Assembly (NCBI RefSeq): GCF_001995215.1
Contig: NZ_MUXN01000005.1
Coordinates: 1-64,000, forward strand
Length of the DNA stretch: 64,000 nt
Direction of reading: 5' to 3'
Origin: Amycolatopsis azurea DSM 43854
Lineage (GTDB): Bacteria > Actinomycetota > Actinomycetes > Mycobacteriales > Pseudonocardiaceae
Below the pieces are notes generated by a model. That model ran no database searches, was not told the origin of the DNA, and saw nothing but the letters and a program-made list of their open reading frames with translations. Within the stretch, counting starts at the first letter, position 1. Every line of letters starts with the position of its first letter. Below are positions 41,742 to 50,854 of this stretch, piece by piece. Both the position numbers and the translations under genes were made by a program.

Positions 41742-42286
41742 ACACCCGCGAGACGATCCTCCACGCCGCGCTCAAGGTGGTCGGGGAACAGGGCGTCGGA
41801 GGGCTGACCAACCGCCGGATCGCGACCGCGGCCGGCGTCTCGCTCGGCACGCTGACCTATCACTTCCCCAGCCAGACCGCGTTGCTGCGCGAGGCGATGC
41901 TGCTGTTCGTCGAGGAGGAGACCACGAAGCTGACCGGCTTCGTGGACGCCTACCGCGAGCAGGGGTTGAGTGTCGAGCAGGCCGCGTCGGTGGTCGAGCA
42001 GGTCATCTCGCAGCTACCGTTCGGCACCGACGAACTCGGCGCGCACGAGCTGTACCTCCAGGCCGCGCGCGACCCCGGCCTGCAGGACGCGGCCGCGCGG
42101 TGTTTCGCCGCCTACGACGAGCTCGCGCTGGTGATCCTGAAGACGCTCGGCGTGCCGTCGCCGGAACGGCTGACCGGTCCGGTCGTGGCGATCATCGCCG
42201 GACTGCAGTTGCGCAGGCTGGCCACCGGCGACGATGGCGTCGGGGTGGCGCAGTCGTTGATGATGCTCGTCCGCGGCGCGTCATGA
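41738..42286 (+). CDS. TetR-family transcriptional regulator
   Basis: This 182-residue regulator (GTG 41738, overlapping the amidase stop) has an N-terminal TetR helix-turn-helix (TRETILHAALKVVGEQGVGGLTNRRIATAAGVSLGTLTYHF). An all-helical ligand domain follows. It probably represses its own operon at the palindrome 40322-40341. Its ligand may be an amidase substrate or product. Confidence 0.92.
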   Translation: MNTRETILHAALKVVGEQGVGGLTNRRIATAAGVSLGTLTYHFPSQTALLREAMLLFVEEETTKLTGFVDAYREQGLSVEQAASVVEQVISQLPFGTDELGAHELYLQAARDPGLQDAAARCFAAYDELALVILKTLGVPSPERLTGPVVAIIAGLQLRRLATGDDGVGVAQSLMMLVRGAS

Positions 42287-43137
42287 GCGGTCCGCTGATC
42301 GTCAAGGGGACGGCGGCGTGGCGGTACTTCGGCGACTTCCGGGCCGGGCTGCTGGCGGGTCAGGTGCTGGTCTTGCAGGTCGCGCATCCGGTCGTCGCGG
42401 CCGGGGTGCGGGATCATTCGGACTACGTCGAGGATCCGTGGACGCGGCTGATGCGCACGGCCGCGTCGCTGTCCATCTACATCTACGGTGGCCCCGAAGG
42501 CGCGCGCTACGAGGCGAACCGGTTGCGCGCGCTGCATCGCGGGTTCACCGGGGTCGACGCCGAAGGCCGCCGGTACAGCGCGCTGAACCCGCGCGCGTAC
42601 GCCTGGGTGCACGCCACGCTCGTCATGGTTCCCGTTGACACGCAACGGTTCTACGGCAAGCCGATGACCGCGTCCGAACTGGACGAGTACTACGCGCAGA
42701 TGTGCGACGTCGGCCGTCTTCTCGGGCTCCGCGAACAGGACATGCCGCCGACGTGGCCGGAATTCGAGCGGTACTACGCGGAAACGATCGACGGCTTCGG
42801 TCCGAACGGGACGATCTCGACGCTGTTCGAGACGATCCGGACGGTGAAGAAACCCTGGCGATGGCTGCCCGACGAACAGTGGGTGCGGCTCCAGCGGTGG
42901 CAGCATCGGGGGCAGATGTTCGTCATCCGCGGCACTCTTCCGCCCGCGCTGCGTGAACGCCTCGGTCTACAGTGGACAGAACAGGACCAGCGCCGGTTCG
43001 ACCGCTTCCGGGCCGTGGTGCGGCTGGCCGGCGGGCTGGTGCCGACGACGTTGCGCTCGTCTCTCGTGCGCCGGATCGGCAGGCTGAACGTCTGGTTCCG
43101 GGCGCATCCGCGCGCTTACCGCTTCCTGGGCGGCTGA
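42283..43137 (+). CDS. MpaB-family oxygenase (DUF2236)
   Basis: This 284-residue protein starts at ATG 42283, overlapping TetR by 4 bp. It contains the DUF2236 core (VLVLQVAHPVVAAGVRDHSDYVEDPW ... LRALHRGFTGV ... AYAWVHATLVMVPV). Relatives include MpaB oxygenase and rubber oxygenase Lcp, which use haem to cleave C=C bonds. The His and Arg/Asp positions of the family are visible. Its TGA stop (43135-43137) lies inside the CTGAAGG end of a hairpin repeat. Confidence 0.85.
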   Translation: MSGPLIVKGTAAWRYFGDFRAGLLAGQVLVLQVAHPVVAAGVRDHSDYVEDPWTRLMRTAASLSIYIYGGPEGARYEANRLRALHRGFTGVDAEGRRYSALNPRAYAWVHATLVMVPVDTQRFYGKPMTASELDEYYAQMCDVGRLLGLREQDMPPTWPEFERYYAETIDGFGPNGTISTLFETIRTVKKPWRWLPDEQWVRLQRWQHRGQMFVIRGTLPPALRERLGLQWTEQDQRRFDRFRAVVRLAGGLVPTTLRSSLVRRIGRLNVWFRAHPRAYRFLGG

Positions 43138-43233: not shown

Positions 43234-43253
43234 GGTCCCCTGTACGGGGGACC
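43234..43253. promoter_or_regulatory. GGTCCCC-N6-GGGGACC palindrome upstream of the membrane operon
   Basis: This is a perfect 7-bp-arm inverted repeat, 58 bp before the first gene of the histidine-rich operon. GC-tract palindromes of this sort resemble metal-sensor operators (CsoR-like), but no such regulator is in the window. Candidate operator. Confidence 0.45.
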
Positions 43254-43310: not shown

Positions 43311-44759
43311 ATGGGGAAATCACCGAGGGGGCGGCGCGCGGCGCCGTTGGTCATCGCCCGCGTACTCGTGCTCTGTGCGCTGGCTTCCTTGCTGTGGGGC
43401 GGCACGGCCCGGGCGGACGGCGTGTCGAGCGGGGCGGACGTCCAGGTCGCGCAGACGCTCGGCACCCGGGACCTCACGATCGTGCTGCGACGGATGGACA
43501 TCGCGCCCGGGCCGCTGCACGTCGACGTCGTCACGCACGCCGGAAGCGCACCGGGCACACTGAAACTGCGCGCGTCGACAGCCGGGAACACGTTTTCCGA
43601 AGCCACGGTCCAGCTGGACGGGAAACCCGGCGCCCATCCGGCGCTGCTGAAGGTCGACCAGCCCGGGCCGTGGGAGCTCGGCCTCGACGACGGGACGGAC
43701 ACCGCGTCGATCCCGTTCCTCGTCCCGGCCAGGGTCATCCCTCCTTGGGAGAAGGCCACCTTCGGCGGTTTCGTCGCCGCGGGCGTGTTCCTGGTGATCG
43801 GTCTCGTGGTCGCGCTGCGCGTCCGGAGACCACAGCTCGCGCTGATCCCGGCAGGCGGGATGGTCGCCGCGCTCGCGGTCGCGGTCACCGGCGCGATGCT
43901 CTCGGCGTCGACACCGGCACCACCCGCGCCGGGCGCGGCACTGGACCCGACGATCGACAACGTCCAGGACCCGTACGCGAACGCGCAGATGTCCACTGTG
44001 GACTTCTCGCGGCCGCCGGTGAACCTGGCGGTGAAGGCGCCGAACGCGCGATCGGGCGGCCTCGCCGAGGTCCGGCTCGCCTTCTCCGACGGCGCGACCG
44101 GACGCCCTGTCGACGATCTTCTGGTGCACGACAACGCCTTGGTGCATCTCGTCGTCATCTCGCCGACGGGCAGGCTCTGGCATCTGCATCCGGTGCGCGT
44201 CGCCCCCGGCGACTACCGCGTGAAGTTCACGCCGCCCGAGGCGGGGACCTACGCCGTCGCCGCCGAGGTCGCCCGGCGAGGTGGTGGGGTGCAGTTGGTC
44301 CGCGCCACGATGGATGTCGCGACAGGCAACGACTCCCCCGCCGAGCCCGTGCCGACGGGCGCCGGCCGGAAGGTCGTGAACGGGAACCCGGTCGACGTCG
44401 AGGTCAAGCCGGGGACACCGACCACGATCACCGCGCGGTTCGGCAAAGCCGATCTCCAACCCTGGCTGGGCATGCTCGGCCACCTGATCGTCGTCGGCCC
44501 GATAACCGGCGACAGCCGGGTCGGCGCGGATGCCGCTGCCGCGCCGACCTGGGCCCATGTGCACTCGATGATCCCGCAATCGCCCGGTATGCCGGGAAAG
44601 CCCGATGAGACCGTCGCCGCGTACGGCCCCGACGTCCCGTTCACCTACACCTTCGCCGCCCCCGGCAAGTACCGGATCTGGTTGCAGGCCGAACGCGACT
44701 ACACGGTGCTGACCGTGCCCATGCAGCTCGAAGTCCCGCCGGAAGGGGCGCCGCAATGA
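43311..44759 (+). CDS. Exported two-lobe membrane protein with paired histidines
   Basis: The protein has 482 residues. A signal peptide (about 10-36, ending TARADG) leads to a ~110-residue beta-rich domain. Two membrane helices follow (about 148-165 and 177-195), then two further extracytoplasmic beta lobes. These lobes carry His pairs: HDNALVH...WHLHP (H273, H279, H291, H293) and GH...WAHVH (H391, H416, H418). Similar 'HLHP' and 'LHVHP' lobes occur in actinobacterial exported proteins thought to bind heavy metals. Copper or another metal is a reasonable guess. The overlap with the next gene indicates an operon. Confidence 0.75.
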   Translation: MGKSPRGRRAAPLVIARVLVLCALASLLWGGTARADGVSSGADVQVAQTLGTRDLTIVLRRMDIAPGPLHVDVVTHAGSAPGTLKLRASTAGNTFSEATVQLDGKPGAHPALLKVDQPGPWELGLDDGTDTASIPFLVPARVIPPWEKATFGGFVAAGVFLVIGLVVALRVRRPQLALIPAGGMVAALAVAVTGAMLSASTPAPPAPGAALDPTIDNVQDPYANAQMSTVDFSRPPVNLAVKAPNARSGGLAEVRLAFSDGATGRPVDDLLVHDNALVHLVVISPTGRLWHLHPVRVAPGDYRVKFTPPEAGTYAVAAEVARRGGGVQLVRATMDVATGNDSPAEPVPTGAGRKVVNGNPVDVEVKPGTPTTITARFGKADLQPWLGMLGHLIVVGPITGDSRVGADAAAAPTWAHVHSMIPQSPGMPGKPDETVAAYGPDVPFTYTFAAPGKYRIWLQAERDYTVLTVPMQLEVPPEGAPQ

Positions 44760-45172
44760 CCACCAAGACGTCCATAGTGGACAGACGTAAGCCCGTCCTG
44801 CTCATTTCCGTCGTCGCCGTGCTCGTGGCGGCGATCGTGGCCTGGCTGGTGTGGCCGAGCGGCGGCGGGGAACAGGTGCAGAGCTCGACCCAGGGCCCGT
44901 ACACCGTGCGGCTTTCGGTCGAGGATCCGCACCAGGGCGGCAATGTCTTCGCCCTGACCGTCAGCGGCGCCACGCCGGACGTCGTCACCGTCGAACCGGT
45001 GATGCCGCAGATGGGGCACGCGCTCGCCCCGTCGCCCGCGATCGCCCAGGCGCCGGGCCGGTTCCGCACCGGCGACGTCCTGTTGCCGATGTCGGGGCAG
45101 TGGGAGATCACCGTTTCACTGCGCGGGCCGTCCGGCTCCACGCAGCACGTTTTTCCTTTGCTGGTCAAGTAG
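44756..45172 (+). CDS. Membrane-anchored FixH/YtkA-like protein
   Basis: The 138-residue protein starts at ATG 44756, overlapping the previous stop. One N-terminal membrane anchor (VLLISVVAVLVAAIVAWLVW) precedes an extracytoplasmic beta-sandwich: YTVRLSVEDPHQGGNVFALTV ... VEPVMPQMGHAL ... GQWEITVSLRGPSG. This pattern is typical of YtkA/FixH-like domains. The PQMGHAL segment places Met and His together, as in copper-binding relatives. It probably works with the preceding protein. Confidence 0.75.
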   Translation: MTTKTSIVDRRKPVLLISVVAVLVAAIVAWLVWPSGGGEQVQSSTQGPYTVRLSVEDPHQGGNVFALTVSGATPDVVTVEPVMPQMGHALAPSPAIAQAPGRFRTGDVLLPMSGQWEITVSLRGPSGSTQHVFPLLVK

Positions 45173-45191
45173 GAGAGGGAGGTCAGGGGGT

Positions 45192-46325
45192 ATGGATCTC
45201 ACCGCGGGAGGGGCGAGGGTCGCCTCGGTGGCACGAAGCGAACGCGCCGGGCTCGTACCGGCGGGCACGGTACTGGCCGGATCGGTGATCTCACTGATCG
45301 GGCTGACCTGGGACATCCAGTGGCACGGCGACGTCGGACCGGACACGTTCTTCACGCTGCCGCATCTGTTCCTGTATTCGGGCAGCGCGATCTCCGGGCT
45401 CGCGAGTCTCGTGGTCGTGCTGATGACCACGGCCGCGCGGCGGGCGGGCCGCCAGGTCGACGCGAGCGTCGGCGGCCGGGCGATCAACGTCTTCGGCAAG
45501 CTTTTCGCCGCACCGGCCGGCTATCTGGTGACCGGGACCGGCGCGGCGATGTTCCTGTTGTACGGCCTGTGGGACCAGTGGTGGCACGGGCTGTACGGCT
45601 TCGACGCGGTGATCGACTCGCCGCCGCACATCGGGCTGCTGCTGTCGATCACGCTGAGCATCATCGGCACGGTCATGGTGTTCGCGGCCGCGCGGGAGCA
45701 CCGCTGGGGCACCCTCGGCGTGGTCGGCAGCCTCGGCGTGCTGATCGCGTTCAGCACGGTCACCGTGCTGGGGCTCCAGCAGATCGACGTCGACCTGGTC
45801 GACGTGATCTCCGTGGGCATCGCGCTGCTTTCGGTGCTGCTGGTCTCGGCGGGCGCCGGGTTCTGGGGACGGCCGGGCGGCGCGGTCCGGGTCGCCGCGT
45901 CGCTGGCGGTCATCCAGGCGATCACCTGGTGGTTCTCGCCGTGGGCGGCGGAGGCGTACGCGAGCGCCGTCGGGTTGCCGATGCGGGACTACATCGACGG
46001 CGTGCCCGCGATGCCCGCGATGATGCCGATGGCGTTGCTGCCGATCGCGGCCGTGCTCGAAGCGGTCTACCTGCTTTCGCGGCGTGGCCTCTCCGCCGGC
46101 CGGGTTTCGGTGCTGGCCGGCGGGATCGGCGGGTTCCTGGTCGGCGCGAGCATGCCGATCCAGAACGTGATCGTGTACGGGGCCTCGCACGTCGAGTGGG
46201 CGCTCGTGTTCGGGACCGCCGCCGCCGGCGCGGTGTTCGGGCTGCTCGGCGGGTTCGCCGGGTGGCGGTTCGGCGGGATGCTGAGGCTGCTGGCCCCGGC
46301 GAAGGGGGACGACGCGCATGCGTAA
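45192..46325 (+). CDS. Polytopic membrane protein with duplicated WDxxWH...PH motif
   Basis: The 377-residue protein has about nine or ten membrane helices and no recognised family. Two copies of one motif are visible. The first is W40-D41-x-x-W44-H45 with Pro-His at 57-58. The second is W127-D128-x-x-W131-H132 with Pro-His at 145-146. They sit at equivalent places after helices, implying an internal duplication and a possible metal or haem site. It starts behind a strong GGAGG-rich leader 19 bp after the FixH-like gene. Confidence 0.72.
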   Translation: MDLTAGGARVASVARSERAGLVPAGTVLAGSVISLIGLTWDIQWHGDVGPDTFFTLPHLFLYSGSAISGLASLVVVLMTTAARRAGRQVDASVGGRAINVFGKLFAAPAGYLVTGTGAAMFLLYGLWDQWWHGLYGFDAVIDSPPHIGLLLSITLSIIGTVMVFAAAREHRWGTLGVVGSLGVLIAFSTVTVLGLQQIDVDLVDVISVGIALLSVLLVSAGAGFWGRPGGAVRVAASLAVIQAITWWFSPWAAEAYASAVGLPMRDYIDGVPAMPAMMPMALLPIAAVLEAVYLLSRRGLSAGRVSVLAGGIGGFLVGASMPIQNVIVYGASHVEWALVFGTAAAGAVFGLLGGFAGWRFGGMLRLLAPAKGDDAHA

Positions 46326-46866
46326 GACACTGCTGGCCTTGGCGGCGGCGATCGGGTTGCTGTTCGCGACCACGCCCGCGGCGAACGCCTACGAACCGGT
46401 GAACATCGTCCACACCGAGCGGGTGCAGGTCGGCCCGTACGGGATGACGGTCGGCTTCAGCACGTGGCCGTTGCGCGCCATGCAATCGCTGGACTTCACG
46501 TTCATCCCGGACGACGGGATCGCCGGGAAGTCGGGGACGCTCGCGTTCGTCAATCCGGAGACCGGGCGGCTGGGCCGCGCGCAGCCGCTGGCGAAGCATC
46601 CGCGGAAGCTGGAGGTGTGGGGACTGGACATCCGGGCCTTGCAGACGCAGGGCGCGTGGACGTTCCGGTTCGAGATCGACGGTCCCGCGGGCAAGGGCAC
46701 GGGGGAACTCCGCGATCTGACGGTGCTCGAACAGCCGGGACCGCCGATGGCGGTGAGCTGGTCGATCAGCCTGATCCCGCTGATCGTCCTGGCCGTCCTG
46801 ATCACCATCGCCTGGAGGCGCACCAAATCCAGGCTCCGCGGGAACGGGCTCCCGGCGACGGTGTGA
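46318..46866 (+). CDS. Exported single-anchor protein, last gene of the His-rich operon
   Basis: The 182-residue protein (ATG 46318, overlapping the previous gene by 8 bp) has a signal peptide (TLLALAAAIGLLFATTPAANA). It then has a beta-rich extracytoplasmic domain (NIVHTERVQVGPYGMTVGFSTWPLRAMQSLDFTF). A C-terminal membrane helix (VSWSISLIPLIVLAVLITIAW) with a basic tail follows. The topology matches CopC/YcnI-like anchored beta domains, but motifs are not diagnostic. It should sit beside the other three proteins at the outer face of the membrane. Confidence 0.75.
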   Translation: MRKTLLALAAAIGLLFATTPAANAYEPVNIVHTERVQVGPYGMTVGFSTWPLRAMQSLDFTFIPDDGIAGKSGTLAFVNPETGRLGRAQPLAKHPRKLEVWGLDIRALQTQGAWTFRFEIDGPAGKGTGELRDLTVLEQPGPPMAVSWSISLIPLIVLAVLITIAWRRTKSRLRGNGLPATV

Positions 46867-46925: not shown

Positions 46926-47180
46926 TCAGGGGCTCAAATCGAACTGTCCGGCCTTGACCGCCTGGAGGAAGGCGTTCCACTCACCGGAATCGAAGACGAA
47001 GACGGGACTCTTCGCCAGTTTGGTGTCACGGACCCCGACCAGGCCTTCGTGGGCGAGGTTGACCTCGACACAGTTACCTCCGTTGGGCTCGCTCGCGAAG
47101 GACTTCTCCCACGCGGAGTCGTCGAACAGCGACACGGCCGTGGTCGGATCGTAATCCGCCGCCGATGGATAATCGGCCAT
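46926..47180 (-). CDS. DUF397 domain protein
   Basis: This 84-residue protein is a typical DUF397 domain: SAWEKSFASEPNGGNCVEVNL ... VGVRDTKLAKSPVFVFDSGEWNAFLQAVKAGQFD. DUF397 proteins pair with Scr1-type XRE regulators in actinomycetes and behave as their small partners. The likely partner here is the XRE gene at 49801, although it is not adjacent. Confidence 0.9.
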   Translation of the reverse strand: MADYPSAADYDPTTAVSLFDDSAWEKSFASEPNGGNCVEVNLAHEGLVGVRDTKLAKSPVFVFDSGEWNAFLQAVKAGQFDLSP

Positions 47181-48079: not shown

Positions 48080-48937
48080 TCAGGGCTTGCGGCCCAGGCC
48101 GCCGAGCCCGCCGGTGAAGGTCGGGTCGTCCGCGAACCGGTCGCTCGCGCGGGAAGCCGCCTCGTCCAGATGCCAGGTGGCCATCCAGTCGATCCCCGGC
48201 TCCACCAGCTCCAGGCCGTCGAAGAACGCGGTGAACTCCGCTCGGGACCGGAGGTGGAACGGCGCGGAGGTCTTCTTGTAGAGCTCCTGGACGTTCTCCC
48301 GGTTGTCGCCTTCCTTGCGGGTGACGCCGTCCTCGGTCAGATGCGAGGACAGGAAGTACGAGCCCGGCGGCAAGAAGTCGAGATAGCGCTGGACGATCTC
48401 GTGGACGGGCACGTCCGGGCCGAGGAAGTACAGCAGGCCGACGAGGACCAGCCCGATCGGCTGGCGGGGGTCGAGCACCCCGGTTTCGAGGGCGCGCTTC
48501 CAGATGTCGGCGGGATCCCGCACGTCACCCTGCAGGACCGCGTGCCGCCCGAGCAGGCCTTCCCGTTCCAGCAGCAGCTGCGAATGCGCGACGGCGACCG
48601 GCTCGATGTCGACGTAGACGACGCGGCTGTCCGGGTTGACCGCGCTCGCGATCTGGTGGACGTTGCCGACGGTGGGCACGCCGGAGCCGATGTCGAGGAA
48701 CTGCGTGATCCCCTGGCGGGCCAGGTATCCCACGCCGCGGCCGAGGAAGTCGCGCCCGACCCGGGCGAAGGTCTTGACCTCCGGGAACTGCTTGAGCACC
48801 TGCGAGCCGAACTCGCGGTCGATGGCCCAGTTGGCGGAACCGCCGAGAAACCAGTCGTACACCCTGGCCACGTTGGGTCGTTCGAGGTCGACACCTTCGG
48901 GAGCTTCGGGGTCTCGGGGGTCCTGCTGCGTCGTCAT
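48080..48937 (-). CDS. DUF574 S-adenosyl methyltransferase family protein (paralogue 1)
   Basis: The 285-residue protein has the PF04672/DUF574 pattern: VDLERPNVARVYDWFLGGSANWAIDREF, SAM loop FLDIGSGVPTVGNVH, VVYVDIEPVAVAHSQLLL and VGLLYFLGPDVPVHEIV. The fold is a class I methyltransferase. The substrate is unknown. These genes are greatly expanded in actinomycetes and often lie near XRE/DUF397 regulators. A paralogue follows 4 bp upstream on the same strand. Confidence 0.9.
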   Translation of the reverse strand: MTTQQDPRDPEAPEGVDLERPNVARVYDWFLGGSANWAIDREFGSQVLKQFPEVKTFARVGRDFLGRGVGYLARQGITQFLDIGSGVPTVGNVHQIASAVNPDSRVVYVDIEPVAVAHSQLLLEREGLLGRHAVLQGDVRDPADIWKRALETGVLDPRQPIGLVLVGLLYFLGPDVPVHEIVQRYLDFLPPGSYFLSSHLTEDGVTRKEGDNRENVQELYKKTSAPFHLRSRAEFTAFFDGLELVEPGIDWMATWHLDEAASRASDRFADDPTFTGGLGGLGRKP

Positions 48938-48941
48938 GCCG

Positions 48942-49772
48942 TCACACCTCGTCGGAAACCGGTTTGCGGGCGACCCCGCCGATGGCGCAGTTAAGCGCAG
49001 GAGAGCGGGGGTCGTCCAGCCGCCATGCGCCGACCGGGACCAGACCGGGCGCCGCGAGGTCGAAATCGCCGAAGAAGCCGCGGATCTCTTCCTTGTCGCG
49101 AAAGGACGCGGGTGTGCTGGACTGCTCGTACTGCTTCACGACGCGCTTGATCTGTTCGAGTTCGTCGCCTTCCACATCGGACATCGTGACGTGGGAAAGA
49201 ACGTAGAAGGAGCCCTCGGGCAGGAGTCTCCGGTACCTCGCGATGACGGCGGCGAGCTCGGGGCCCGGTACGAAGTGCAGGACCGCGACGGTGAGCAAGG
49301 CCACCGGCCGGGCCGGGTCGAGCACGCCGGTGTCGAAGGCGCGTTCCCAGACGTCGTCGGCGTCGCGCAGGTCGCCGCCGATCACCGCGTGCCTGGCGGG
49401 ATCCCCGCCTCTTTCCAGCAGGATCCTGCCGTGTGCGACGGCGACCGGTTCGTTGTCGACGTATACGCAGCGGCTGTCTTCGTCGACCTCTCCGGCGATC
49501 TCGTGGACGTTGCCGACAGTGGGCACGCCGGAGCCGAGATCGAGGAACTGGTTCACGCCGTGCTCGGCGCAATACCGCACCGCACGGCCGAGGAAGGCCC
49601 GGTTGGCCCTGGCGAGGGAGCGGATGAGCGGGAAGGCCTTGACCAGTTGCTCGCCGAATTCCCTGTCCACCGCCCAGTTCGCGGTTCCCCCGAGTGCCCA
49701 GTCGTAGATCCGGGCGGCGTTGGGCCGCTCGAGATCGACACCCTCGGGCAGGAACTGCGGATCCACGTCCAT
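48942..49772 (-). CDS. DUF574 S-adenosyl methyltransferase family protein (paralogue 2)
   Basis: The 276-residue protein starts at ATG 49772. It is parallel to paralogue 1 throughout: GVDLERPNAARIYDWALGGTANWAVDREF, FLDLGSGVPTVGNVHEIAGEV, VYVDNEPVAVAHGRIL, and a C-terminal DLAAPGLVPVGAWRLDD. The two genes probably arose by tandem duplication, since the similarity spans the full length. Methyl acceptor unknown. Confidence 0.9.
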   Translation of the reverse strand: MDVDPQFLPEGVDLERPNAARIYDWALGGTANWAVDREFGEQLVKAFPLIRSLARANRAFLGRAVRYCAEHGVNQFLDLGSGVPTVGNVHEIAGEVDEDSRCVYVDNEPVAVAHGRILLERGGDPARHAVIGGDLRDADDVWERAFDTGVLDPARPVALLTVAVLHFVPGPELAAVIARYRRLLPEGSFYVLSHVTMSDVEGDELEQIKRVVKQYEQSSTPASFRDKEEIRGFFGDFDLAAPGLVPVGAWRLDDPRSPALNCAIGGVARKPVSDEV

Positions 49773-49800
49773 GACCCTACCGAAGGGACGTCGTCGATCT

Positions 49801-50658
49801 TCAGGATTGCATCTGATTGCGGTACAGCTCGGCGAGTTCCTTGAGGAACTGCCGGGTTTCCTGGCGTTCCAGCGCGGCGCCGCGCAGCCTGTCCCAGGAG
49901 TCGACGAAGATGTTGAAGTCCTTGACGTCGTCGAGGTACAACCCGCCCGCGGAATGCTCGATGTAGACGAAATCCCTGGTGCGATCGGGAAAACGCATGA
50001 TGGTGAAGTCGTTGGGCACCGCGGCGAGGCGGGCGCCGAACGGCAGGACGTGCACATACACGCGCGGATGCTTGTCCAGCGCCAGCAGATGCTCGACCTG
50101 GTCGAGCATCACCGCCGGGGCGGAACCGCCGGGAGCGCGGCGCAGGGCGCCTTCGCTGATGATGAACCGGTAGTAGGGCGGCTGCTGTTGTTCGAAGACG
50201 GCCTTGCGGTCCAGCCGGTTGCGGACCAACGAGGTGACGTCGGTGGCGCCGGCTTCGGTGAACTGCTTGAGCATGTAGTGCTCGGACTGCAACGGGCCGG
50301 GGATGCGCTCGCCGTGCCAGGTGAGGATCTCCGCGGCCGCGGGTTCGAGGTCGGTGAAGGTGCGGAACCAGTGCGGTACCACGGATCGATAGCCGGACCA
50401 GTGGCCGCGCTGCCCGGCCGCGGCGCGGGCCAGGTTCATCAGCGTGTCGGCCTCGTCGCCGTTGATCCCGAACGCGTTCAGCATCGATCGCACATCCCCG
50501 AGTTTGACCCCGACGGCACCGGACTCGATCTTGTTGACCTTGCCCTGGGTGCAGCCGAGAACCTCGGCGACCTGCTGCTGTGTCATCCGCGCGGCGTTGC
50601 GGGCATGCCGGAGCTCGTTCCCGAGCTGCTTCCGGCGCGAGGTGACGGTGCTGGCCAT
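49801..50658 (-). CDS. Scr1-type XRE regulator with DUF5753
   Basis: The 285-residue protein starts at ATG 50658. It has an N-terminal XRE domain (about 10-65, RMTQQQVAEVLGCTQGKVNKIESG) and a DUF5753 C-terminal domain (SEHYMLKQFTEAGAT ... QVEHLLALDKHPRVYVHVLPFGA ... VYIEHSAGGLYLDD). Such regulators act with DUF397 partners and influence secondary metabolism in streptomycetes. It follows the DUF574 pair on the same strand. Confidence 0.92.
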   Translation of the reverse strand: MASTVTSRRKQLGNELRHARNAARMTQQQVAEVLGCTQGKVNKIESGAVGVKLGDVRSMLNAFGINGDEADTLMNLARAAAGQRGHWSGYRSVVPHWFRTFTDLEPAAAEILTWHGERIPGPLQSEHYMLKQFTEAGATDVTSLVRNRLDRKAVFEQQQPPYYRFIISEGALRRAPGGSAPAVMLDQVEHLLALDKHPRVYVHVLPFGARLAAVPNDFTIMRFPDRTRDFVYIEHSAGGLYLDDVKDFNIFVDSWDRLRGAALERQETRQFLKELAELYRNQMQS

Positions 50659-50854
50659 CAGCCTTGCTCTCCCGGACCACATAGCCAGGACCGCGGCTTC
50701 CCGCCGTCCTGCGCGCGAATACTCGAACCCACCCAGGGTACTTCACCTTGCGGGGTTCGATGATGACATTCCGCAGCGTTCCAGGAAACGGCCGAAAACA
50801 CCAGTCACCTGGTACGTCACCCTGGTGGCGGAACGATCTCGTCACATTCCGGGC

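Follow-up and report, generated by a model that had tools for sequence, protein, structure and literature searches.

The window analysed here is a stretch of 64,000 nucleotides from Amycolatopsis azurea DSM 43854 (contig NZ_MUXN01000005.1, positions 1 to 64,000), an organism with a genome of 9.2 Mb, and the element in question is an operon of four open reading frames (ORFs) on the + strand, which overlap or lie 19 bases apart. This operon may encode a membrane copper complex whose core protein, ORF3, is distantly related, as a single chain, to the membrane part of the copper membrane monooxygenases (CuMMOs), a reading for which we put the chances at about even. An earlier interpretation made from the letters of the sequence, here called the original prediction, had described four overlapping or nearly contiguous genes, as the ORF coordinates confirm:

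43311-44759, + strand: ORF1, 482 amino acids
44756-45172, + strand: ORF2, 138 amino acids, ATGA overlap with ORF1; membrane-anchored YtkA-like copper-binding protein (Pfam PF13115, PDB 9ll2)
45192-46325, + strand: ORF3, 377 amino acids, 19-base gap after ORF2; PmoC/AmoC-like N-terminal half joined to a PmoA/AmoA-like C-terminal half (AlphaFold, VIA-align, profile comparisons)
46318-46866, + strand: ORF4, 182 amino acids, 8-base overlap with ORF3; signal-like N-terminus, beta domain with H32, E34 and H94 (80/80 homologs), C-terminal helix

From a scan of genome contigs, 80 of 185 relatives were kept as homologous loci of the ORF3 family, and all four genes are present in the same order in 79 of these 80, a conservation far above chance. 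The exception (L073) starts at a contig end and retains ORF3 and ORF4; a more distant locus (L149) likewise has ORF3 and ORF4, and ORF1 and ORF2 were not found there. The original prediction had made its reading depend on the four genes being conserved together, and on this point it holds. Loci with the four-gene set occur in Amycolatopsis, Lentzea, Kibdelosporangium, Actinokineospora, Crossiella, Umezawaea, Nonomuraea, Nocardia and others. Sampling of 396 actinobacterial genomes across the phylum turned up the ORF3 family as a whole, with all its types, in 45.

ORF3 is predicted by AlphaFold to be the polytopic membrane protein of the set, which agrees with the original prediction, as does the beta-rich character of the ORF1 model. 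The N-terminal half of ORF3 carries two sets of candidate metal ligands:

45312-45365, + strand: CuC-like site D41-x3-H45-x12-H58, with D51 in between
45573-45629, + strand: CuD-like site D128-x3-H132-x13-H146, with D138 in between

The six ligands and the acidic residues D51 and D138 are each unchanged in 80/80 four-gene homologs. When 28 divergent members were aligned, the four-gene type showing 21-23% identity to the first row, the columns without any exchange were limited to those of the six ligands and to two Gly, one Asp and one Pro. According to a passage of PMC12576850, chain C of the particulate methane monooxygenase (pMMO) binds CuC through Asp156/His160/His173 and CuD through Asn227/His231/His245, and the ligand spacings of ORF3 are exactly those of these two PmoC sets. 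The likeness extends to the acidic residue at position +10, given that the CuMMO C-subunits fetched for comparison read D-x3-H-x5-D-x6-H and N-x3-H-x5-E-x7-H. It applies to the CuMMOs at large, i.e., pMMO, ammonia monooxygenase (AMO) and the actinobacterial hydrocarbon monooxygenase, all encoded by xmoCAB genes. Furthermore, the motif pair was found in 116 of 4,961 ORFs (frames of at least 150 amino acids from all loci fetched, duplicates included where loci overlap), and all 116 belong either to the ORF3 family or to PmoC/AmoC. These D-x3-H...H pairs, and with them the kinship to PmoC/AmoC and the PmoA-like C-terminal half described below, had been missed by the original prediction.

Profile comparisons point in the same direction. 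The alignments were chosen for diversity and comprised 44 of the 80 loci in A3 and A4, 31 in A5 and 23 in A6. When the diverse N-terminal half was compared with AmoC using hhalign, a score of 36.1 (E=9.8e-5) was obtained, as against a mean of 12.9 and a maximum of 21.5 for 150 column-shuffled controls and a score of 14.8 for the reversed-profile control. The N-terminal half of the four-gene type alone scored 27.3 (E=0.0025), a value reached by 0/80 shuffles, with both sites in register; the Asp-x3-His-x12-His pattern of the CuC ligands, one of the features by which a CuMMO is recognised, is present in ORF3 and matched to that of AmoC in the alignment. The cross controls behaved as unrelated pairs, with 24/80 shuffles as high for the N-terminal half versus AmoA and 16/80 for the C-terminal half versus AmoC. 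In addition, a hidden Markov model built from ten CuMMO C-subunits and run against the 4,961 ORFs ranked members of the ORF3 family directly after the ten training sequences (best E=0.0028), and the ten-member family profile A1 returned three AmoC chains as its top hits among 177,635 PDB sequences, aligned on the CuC motif at E 0.21-0.54. The N-terminal half of ORF3 is therefore very likely to be homologous to PmoC.

For the C-terminal half, the predicted fold points to PmoA. The AlphaFold model of ORF3, based on 45 sequences, has a mean predicted local distance difference test (pLDDT) value of 89.7 and a predicted template modelling (pTM) score of 0.89, and places D41/H45 and D128/H132 where helices 4-47 and 109-135 end, and H58 and H146 where helices 56-84 and 144-166 begin. 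When the 1,000 best chains from Foldseek were re-aligned with VIA-align, the top nine rows were pMMO/AMO chains with Z scores of 11.0-11.9, the first unrelated entry following at 8.7, although the tool's own note states that a Z near 12 is possible for unrelated helical bundles. Five of these nine rows cover ORF3 residues 167-376 only, and 7ev9_B superimposes on the model with a root-mean-square deviation of 3.1 over 168 residues. The subunit is not named in these rows; they were read as PmoA/AmoA from chain length, numbering and the exclusion of known AmoC chains, just as length, numbering and comparison with the AmoC chains of the PDB profile search led to 7yzy_C and 9cl1_Ba being read as PmoC. 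Homology of the C-terminal half to PmoA is accordingly somewhat favoured. PmoC, to which the N-terminal half points by sequence, and PmoA, to which the C-terminal half points by fold, lie next to each other in one enzyme; taken together, these observations give ORF3 the appearance of a natural single-chain PmoC+PmoA-like core.

The three remaining proteins appear to be extracytoplasmic beta subunits. ORF2 belongs to the YtkA family, with 29.8 bits against Pfam PF13115 (gathering cut-off 25.9), and matches PDB 9ll2, a 'Copper resistance protein', at E=1.3e-9; it thereby resembles the YtkA/CtaK and FixH-like domains, but its gene accompanies that of a PmoC/PmoA-like core, whereas in YcnJ the YtkA domain is fused to CopC-CopD. 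For ORF2 and ORF4, signal peptides and single helices were assigned by visual inspection. Conserved candidate ligands in ORF1 and ORF2 are located as follows:

44145-44189, + strand: ORF1, first three-His set H279, H291, H293 (HLHP)
44481-44564, + strand: ORF1, second three-His set H391, H416, H418
45002-45019, + strand: ORF2, Met/His motif M83-x2-M86-x-H88 (MPQMGH); M112 lies farther towards the C-terminus

The PQMGHAL motif to which the original prediction drew attention is borne out, M83, M86, H88 and M112 being kept in 78, 79, 78 and 79 of 79 homologs, respectively. The recurring His residues, all found at the positions given in the original prediction, mostly are as well, since H279, H291, H293, H391, H416 and H418 of ORF1 are each conserved in 79/79 homologs, as is H76, which was absent from its list; H273, which had been counted among them, is present in 73/79. 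The ORF1 model (pLDDT 83.7) comprises a signal-like N-terminus, a beta region at 44-138, helices at 145-171 and 174-200, and further beta regions at 235-338 and 352-475. Its first two beta domains, D1 and D2, match the ORF2 profile in hhalign at E=1.4e-4 and 8.5e-5, respectively (0/40 shuffles as high in each case), and its third beta domain does so at E=0.0028 over ten columns (0/40 shuffles); the comparison of D1 with D2 did not stand out, 3/40 shuffles being as high, and a PDB sequence search with ORF1 alone returned nothing useful. For ORF4, the beta assignment of the original prediction is backed by a weak similarity to the ORF2 profile (E=7.4e-4, 0/40 shuffles), whereas for ORF2 it follows from homology. 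Among larger relatives, a C-terminal domain fused to the PmoC-like core also matches the ORF2 profile (E=4.4e-5, 0/40 shuffles), and the core and a YtkA-like domain therefore belong together across the family; the same C-terminal domain did not stand out against ORF4 (5/40 shuffles as high).

The original prediction had proposed a metal, probably copper, and the YtkA domain, the 9ll2 match and the CuC/CuD-type ligand sets of ORF3 agree with this; copper binding by the operon's products is highly probable, judging from their sequences. No strong match to a non-metal family was found. The relationship of ORF3 to PmoC/AmoC, with its PmoA-like C-terminal half, changes what the locus most likely is. 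With the CuMMOs the operon appears to share a membrane core in which a PmoC-like half is followed by a PmoA-like half, and ORF1 recalls PmoB in being a beta protein interrupted near its middle by a pair of neighbouring helices, with one domain more. It differs in that ORF3 is one chain instead of a separate PmoC and PmoA, in the Asp of its CuD-type site in place of Asn, and in having no recognisable PmoB: the N-terminal histidine brace (His-brace) was not seen, and YtkA-like beta proteins are encoded instead. Passages of PMC9038741 describe divergent archaeal CuMMOs as keeping separate amoA, amoB and amoC genes together with the CuB and CuC sites, and these accordingly represent a different case from the operon; in passages of PMC6215863, xmoCAB is treated as three genes and archaeal AMO as the most distant group.

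Several results weigh against a CuMMO-related core, and the caution attached to the VIA-align scores belongs among them. AmoC was not among the PDB matches of the family profiles A3 and A7. Matches to the Pfam families of all three CuMMO subunits were wanting: PF04896 (AmoC) matched one of the 28 divergent members, below the cut-off (E=0.23), and nothing in the host genome at E<=0.1; PF02461 (AmoA) had no match in the host genome at E<=1; and the best match of PF04744 (PmoB) in that genome, at E=0.45, lies on another contig. Foldseek gave no match for the ORF3 model at E<=0.001, the PmoC chain 7s4h_C ranking 23rd with E=1.0. By sequence, the C-terminal half was marginal against AmoA in hhalign (1/80 shuffles as high), and two other such comparisons found nothing. 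The ORF1 profile showed no sequence similarity to PmoB, and its model returned many Ig-like and macroglobulin domain matches and no PmoB-specific fold match. At the CuD-like site, the exchange of Asn for Asp holds in 80/80 homologs, in all of which the spacing and both His are kept. Finally, no genes for a substrate, an electron donor or methylotrophy came to light beside the operon. Since several defining features of a CuMMO were looked for and not found, the operon is not filed as a member of that group, whose definition it falls outside.

How such a complex might work can be sketched as follows. ORF1, ORF2 and ORF4 would be outward-facing YtkA/FixH-like beta subunits, holding the place that PmoB and PmoD occupy in the CuMMOs. 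They would gather copper outside the membrane, through the Met/His site of ORF2 and the three-His sites of ORF1, and hand it, possibly along with electrons, to ORF3 as their partner in a single complex of all four proteins. The copper would thus reach the membrane face of ORF3 and its two Asp/His2 sites, at which it may, by analogy with CuC and CuD, activate O2 for the oxidation of a small substrate or of a membrane-borne or lipid one. We infer copper as the metal of ORF3, and consider oxygenase-type chemistry to fall slightly short of an even prospect. More tentatively, and on the unlikely side, the operon may represent an undescribed branch of the CuMMO superfamily in soil actinobacteria, namely a single-chain PmoC-PmoA enzyme with YtkA-type copper donors and without the PmoB His-brace, forming part of a wider Actinomycetota family of fusions and paralogs that would be the source of, or sister to, the methane and ammonia monooxygenases.

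The 'redox complex' of the original prediction is one of two live readings. In the other, the operon would encode a copper acquisition or metallation complex with no oxygenase activity, in which the PmoC/PmoA-like core acts as a copper permease or loading platform feeding cytochrome oxidase or another cuproenzyme; we regard this as a real, if rather doubtful, possibility. Its logic would resemble that of Bacillus subtilis YcnJ, which combines CopC, CopD and YtkA domains in copper import and CuA assembly, the YtkA domains of this species acting in assembly of the CuA site (both according to passages of PMC13344008). As in YcnJ, extracytoplasmic copper-binding beta domains, one of them a YtkA domain, would work with a polytopic protein, and the presence of several YtkA/FixH-type beta domains with His/Met residues, the lack of canonical monooxygenase subunits in the genome and the cupredoxin-like exported proteins that adjoin related cores all accord with such a role. 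Unlike in YcnJ, however, the genes are separate and the polytopic part is PmoC/PmoA-like and not CopD: no CopC match was obtained for ORF1 or ORF4, and no CopD match for ORF3, in Pfam at E<=10, and a CopD importer was rejected on the latter ground. Moreover, the nearest relatives of ORF3 by motif, profile and fold are CuMMO membrane subunits, and invariance of both complete PmoC ligand sets would not be required of a carrier; the sites look catalytic.

Chance is a different kind of explanation, according to which the D-x3-H...H motifs are convergent and ORF3 is an unrelated polytopic metalloprotein, possibly binding zinc or iron. The absence of a database-level significant sequence match, the non-significant Foldseek E-values and the failure of A3 and A7 to find AmoC in the PDB fit this view, but both sites agree in spacing as well as in their additional acidic residues, none of the 150 or 80 shuffles reaches the observed profile score, and the two halves independently point to two partner subunits of one enzyme, so that we deem convergence unlikely. 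Chance clustering of His residues, for its part, was rejected in view of residue invariance. A sensor or signalling module, detecting copper, O2 or an envelope signal on behalf of a two-component system often encoded upstream, is highly improbable: a NarL-type response regulator does lie upstream in about 22 of 30 loci (a count that rests on recurring frames antisense to the regulator, with the sense genes read in two loci and one more regulator confirmed by Pfam), but the two-component genes are absent beside the operon of the window, and where present such a regulator more simply controls the operon. A drug transporter of the SMR type was discarded, its NCBIfam match (E=0.021) falling far below the cut-off; the NCBIfam scan otherwise gave weak chance matches only, and comparison of ORF3 with PHROGs and a search of a viral structure library yielded nothing useful.

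Searches of the open-licence literature of PubMed Central brought up no account of this operon or of PmoC and PmoA joined in a single chain, in agreement with the statement in the original prediction that no described system was known to have exactly this set. If ORF3 is the distant CuMMO relative proposed here, its family would give the CuMMOs a distant outgroup. It has long been debated whether the active site of methane monooxygenase lies in PmoB, PmoA or PmoC (introduction of PMC12576850), and a relative with the PmoC ligand sets but without a recognisable PmoB would make this question testable in culturable soil bacteria; a true superfamily branch would offer a minimal system in which to find out at which of the copper sites the chemistry takes place. 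Were the operon instead a copper-loading machine, this would hint at a common descent of the monooxygenase core and copper trafficking.

The palindromic upstream site of the original prediction was likewise recovered:

43235-43252, strand not assigned: 18-base inverted repeat GTCCCCTGTACGGGGGAC, conserved upstream of the operon

Its core, TCCCCT-N2-ACGGGGGACC, is kept in the window and in 10/10 close loci aligned, and the repeat is the sole perfect copy in the genome, four other places matching with two mismatches; judged from its sequence and conservation, it is a probable operator. Immediately upstream of the operon, with the same orientation, the window contains a gene of the MPAB_Lcp_cat (rubber oxygenase) type at 42283-43134 (Pfam E=1.7e-67), and a TetR regulator gene is also located upstream. 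When 30 of the 80 loci were clustered, the TetR and MpaB/Lcp-type genes did not emerge as generally conserved neighbours. A NarL-type response regulator and a sensor kinase are encoded upstream of the four-gene operon at L094:1600-3482 and L064:2301-4117.

Of note, the host genome carries two further paralogs of the PmoC-like core. The first, at L139:7190-10672, is a protein of ~600 amino acids in which the core is fused to a YtkA-like domain, and it is adjoined by an exported cupredoxin-like protein and by a polytopic protein starting AHGLGG-S/T-DLP or similar, for which no convincing Pfam family was found; this three-gene grouping recurs in L150 and L151. The second, at L140:7047-8285, has 413 amino acids and contains DMSWHFMWLRDDLAPPH and DVINHRVNGLDLTAWSPSH; its neighbours are apparently unrelated and it has no Pfam match. 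Among the members scanned against curated Pfam, no convincing family was obtained for the PmoC-like-core family either. Among the CuMMO records, L144, L145 and L146 (Methylocystis and Nitrosomonas plasmids) contain a lone amoC/pmoC whose listed neighbours include no gene for an A or B subunit, and no CuMMO C-subunits were detected in phage records at E<=1e-3. Downstream of the operon, the window encodes a DUF397 protein (46926-47180) and, on the - strand at 48080-50682, two methyltransferase-like genes resembling one another, plus a gene for a helix-turn-helix regulator, as read by eye. Finally, the record JOAA01000010.1 (L053), labelled Rhodococcus rhodnii, has operon lengths equal to those of the Kibdelosporangium loci L052 and L056 and is possibly a mislabelled genome.

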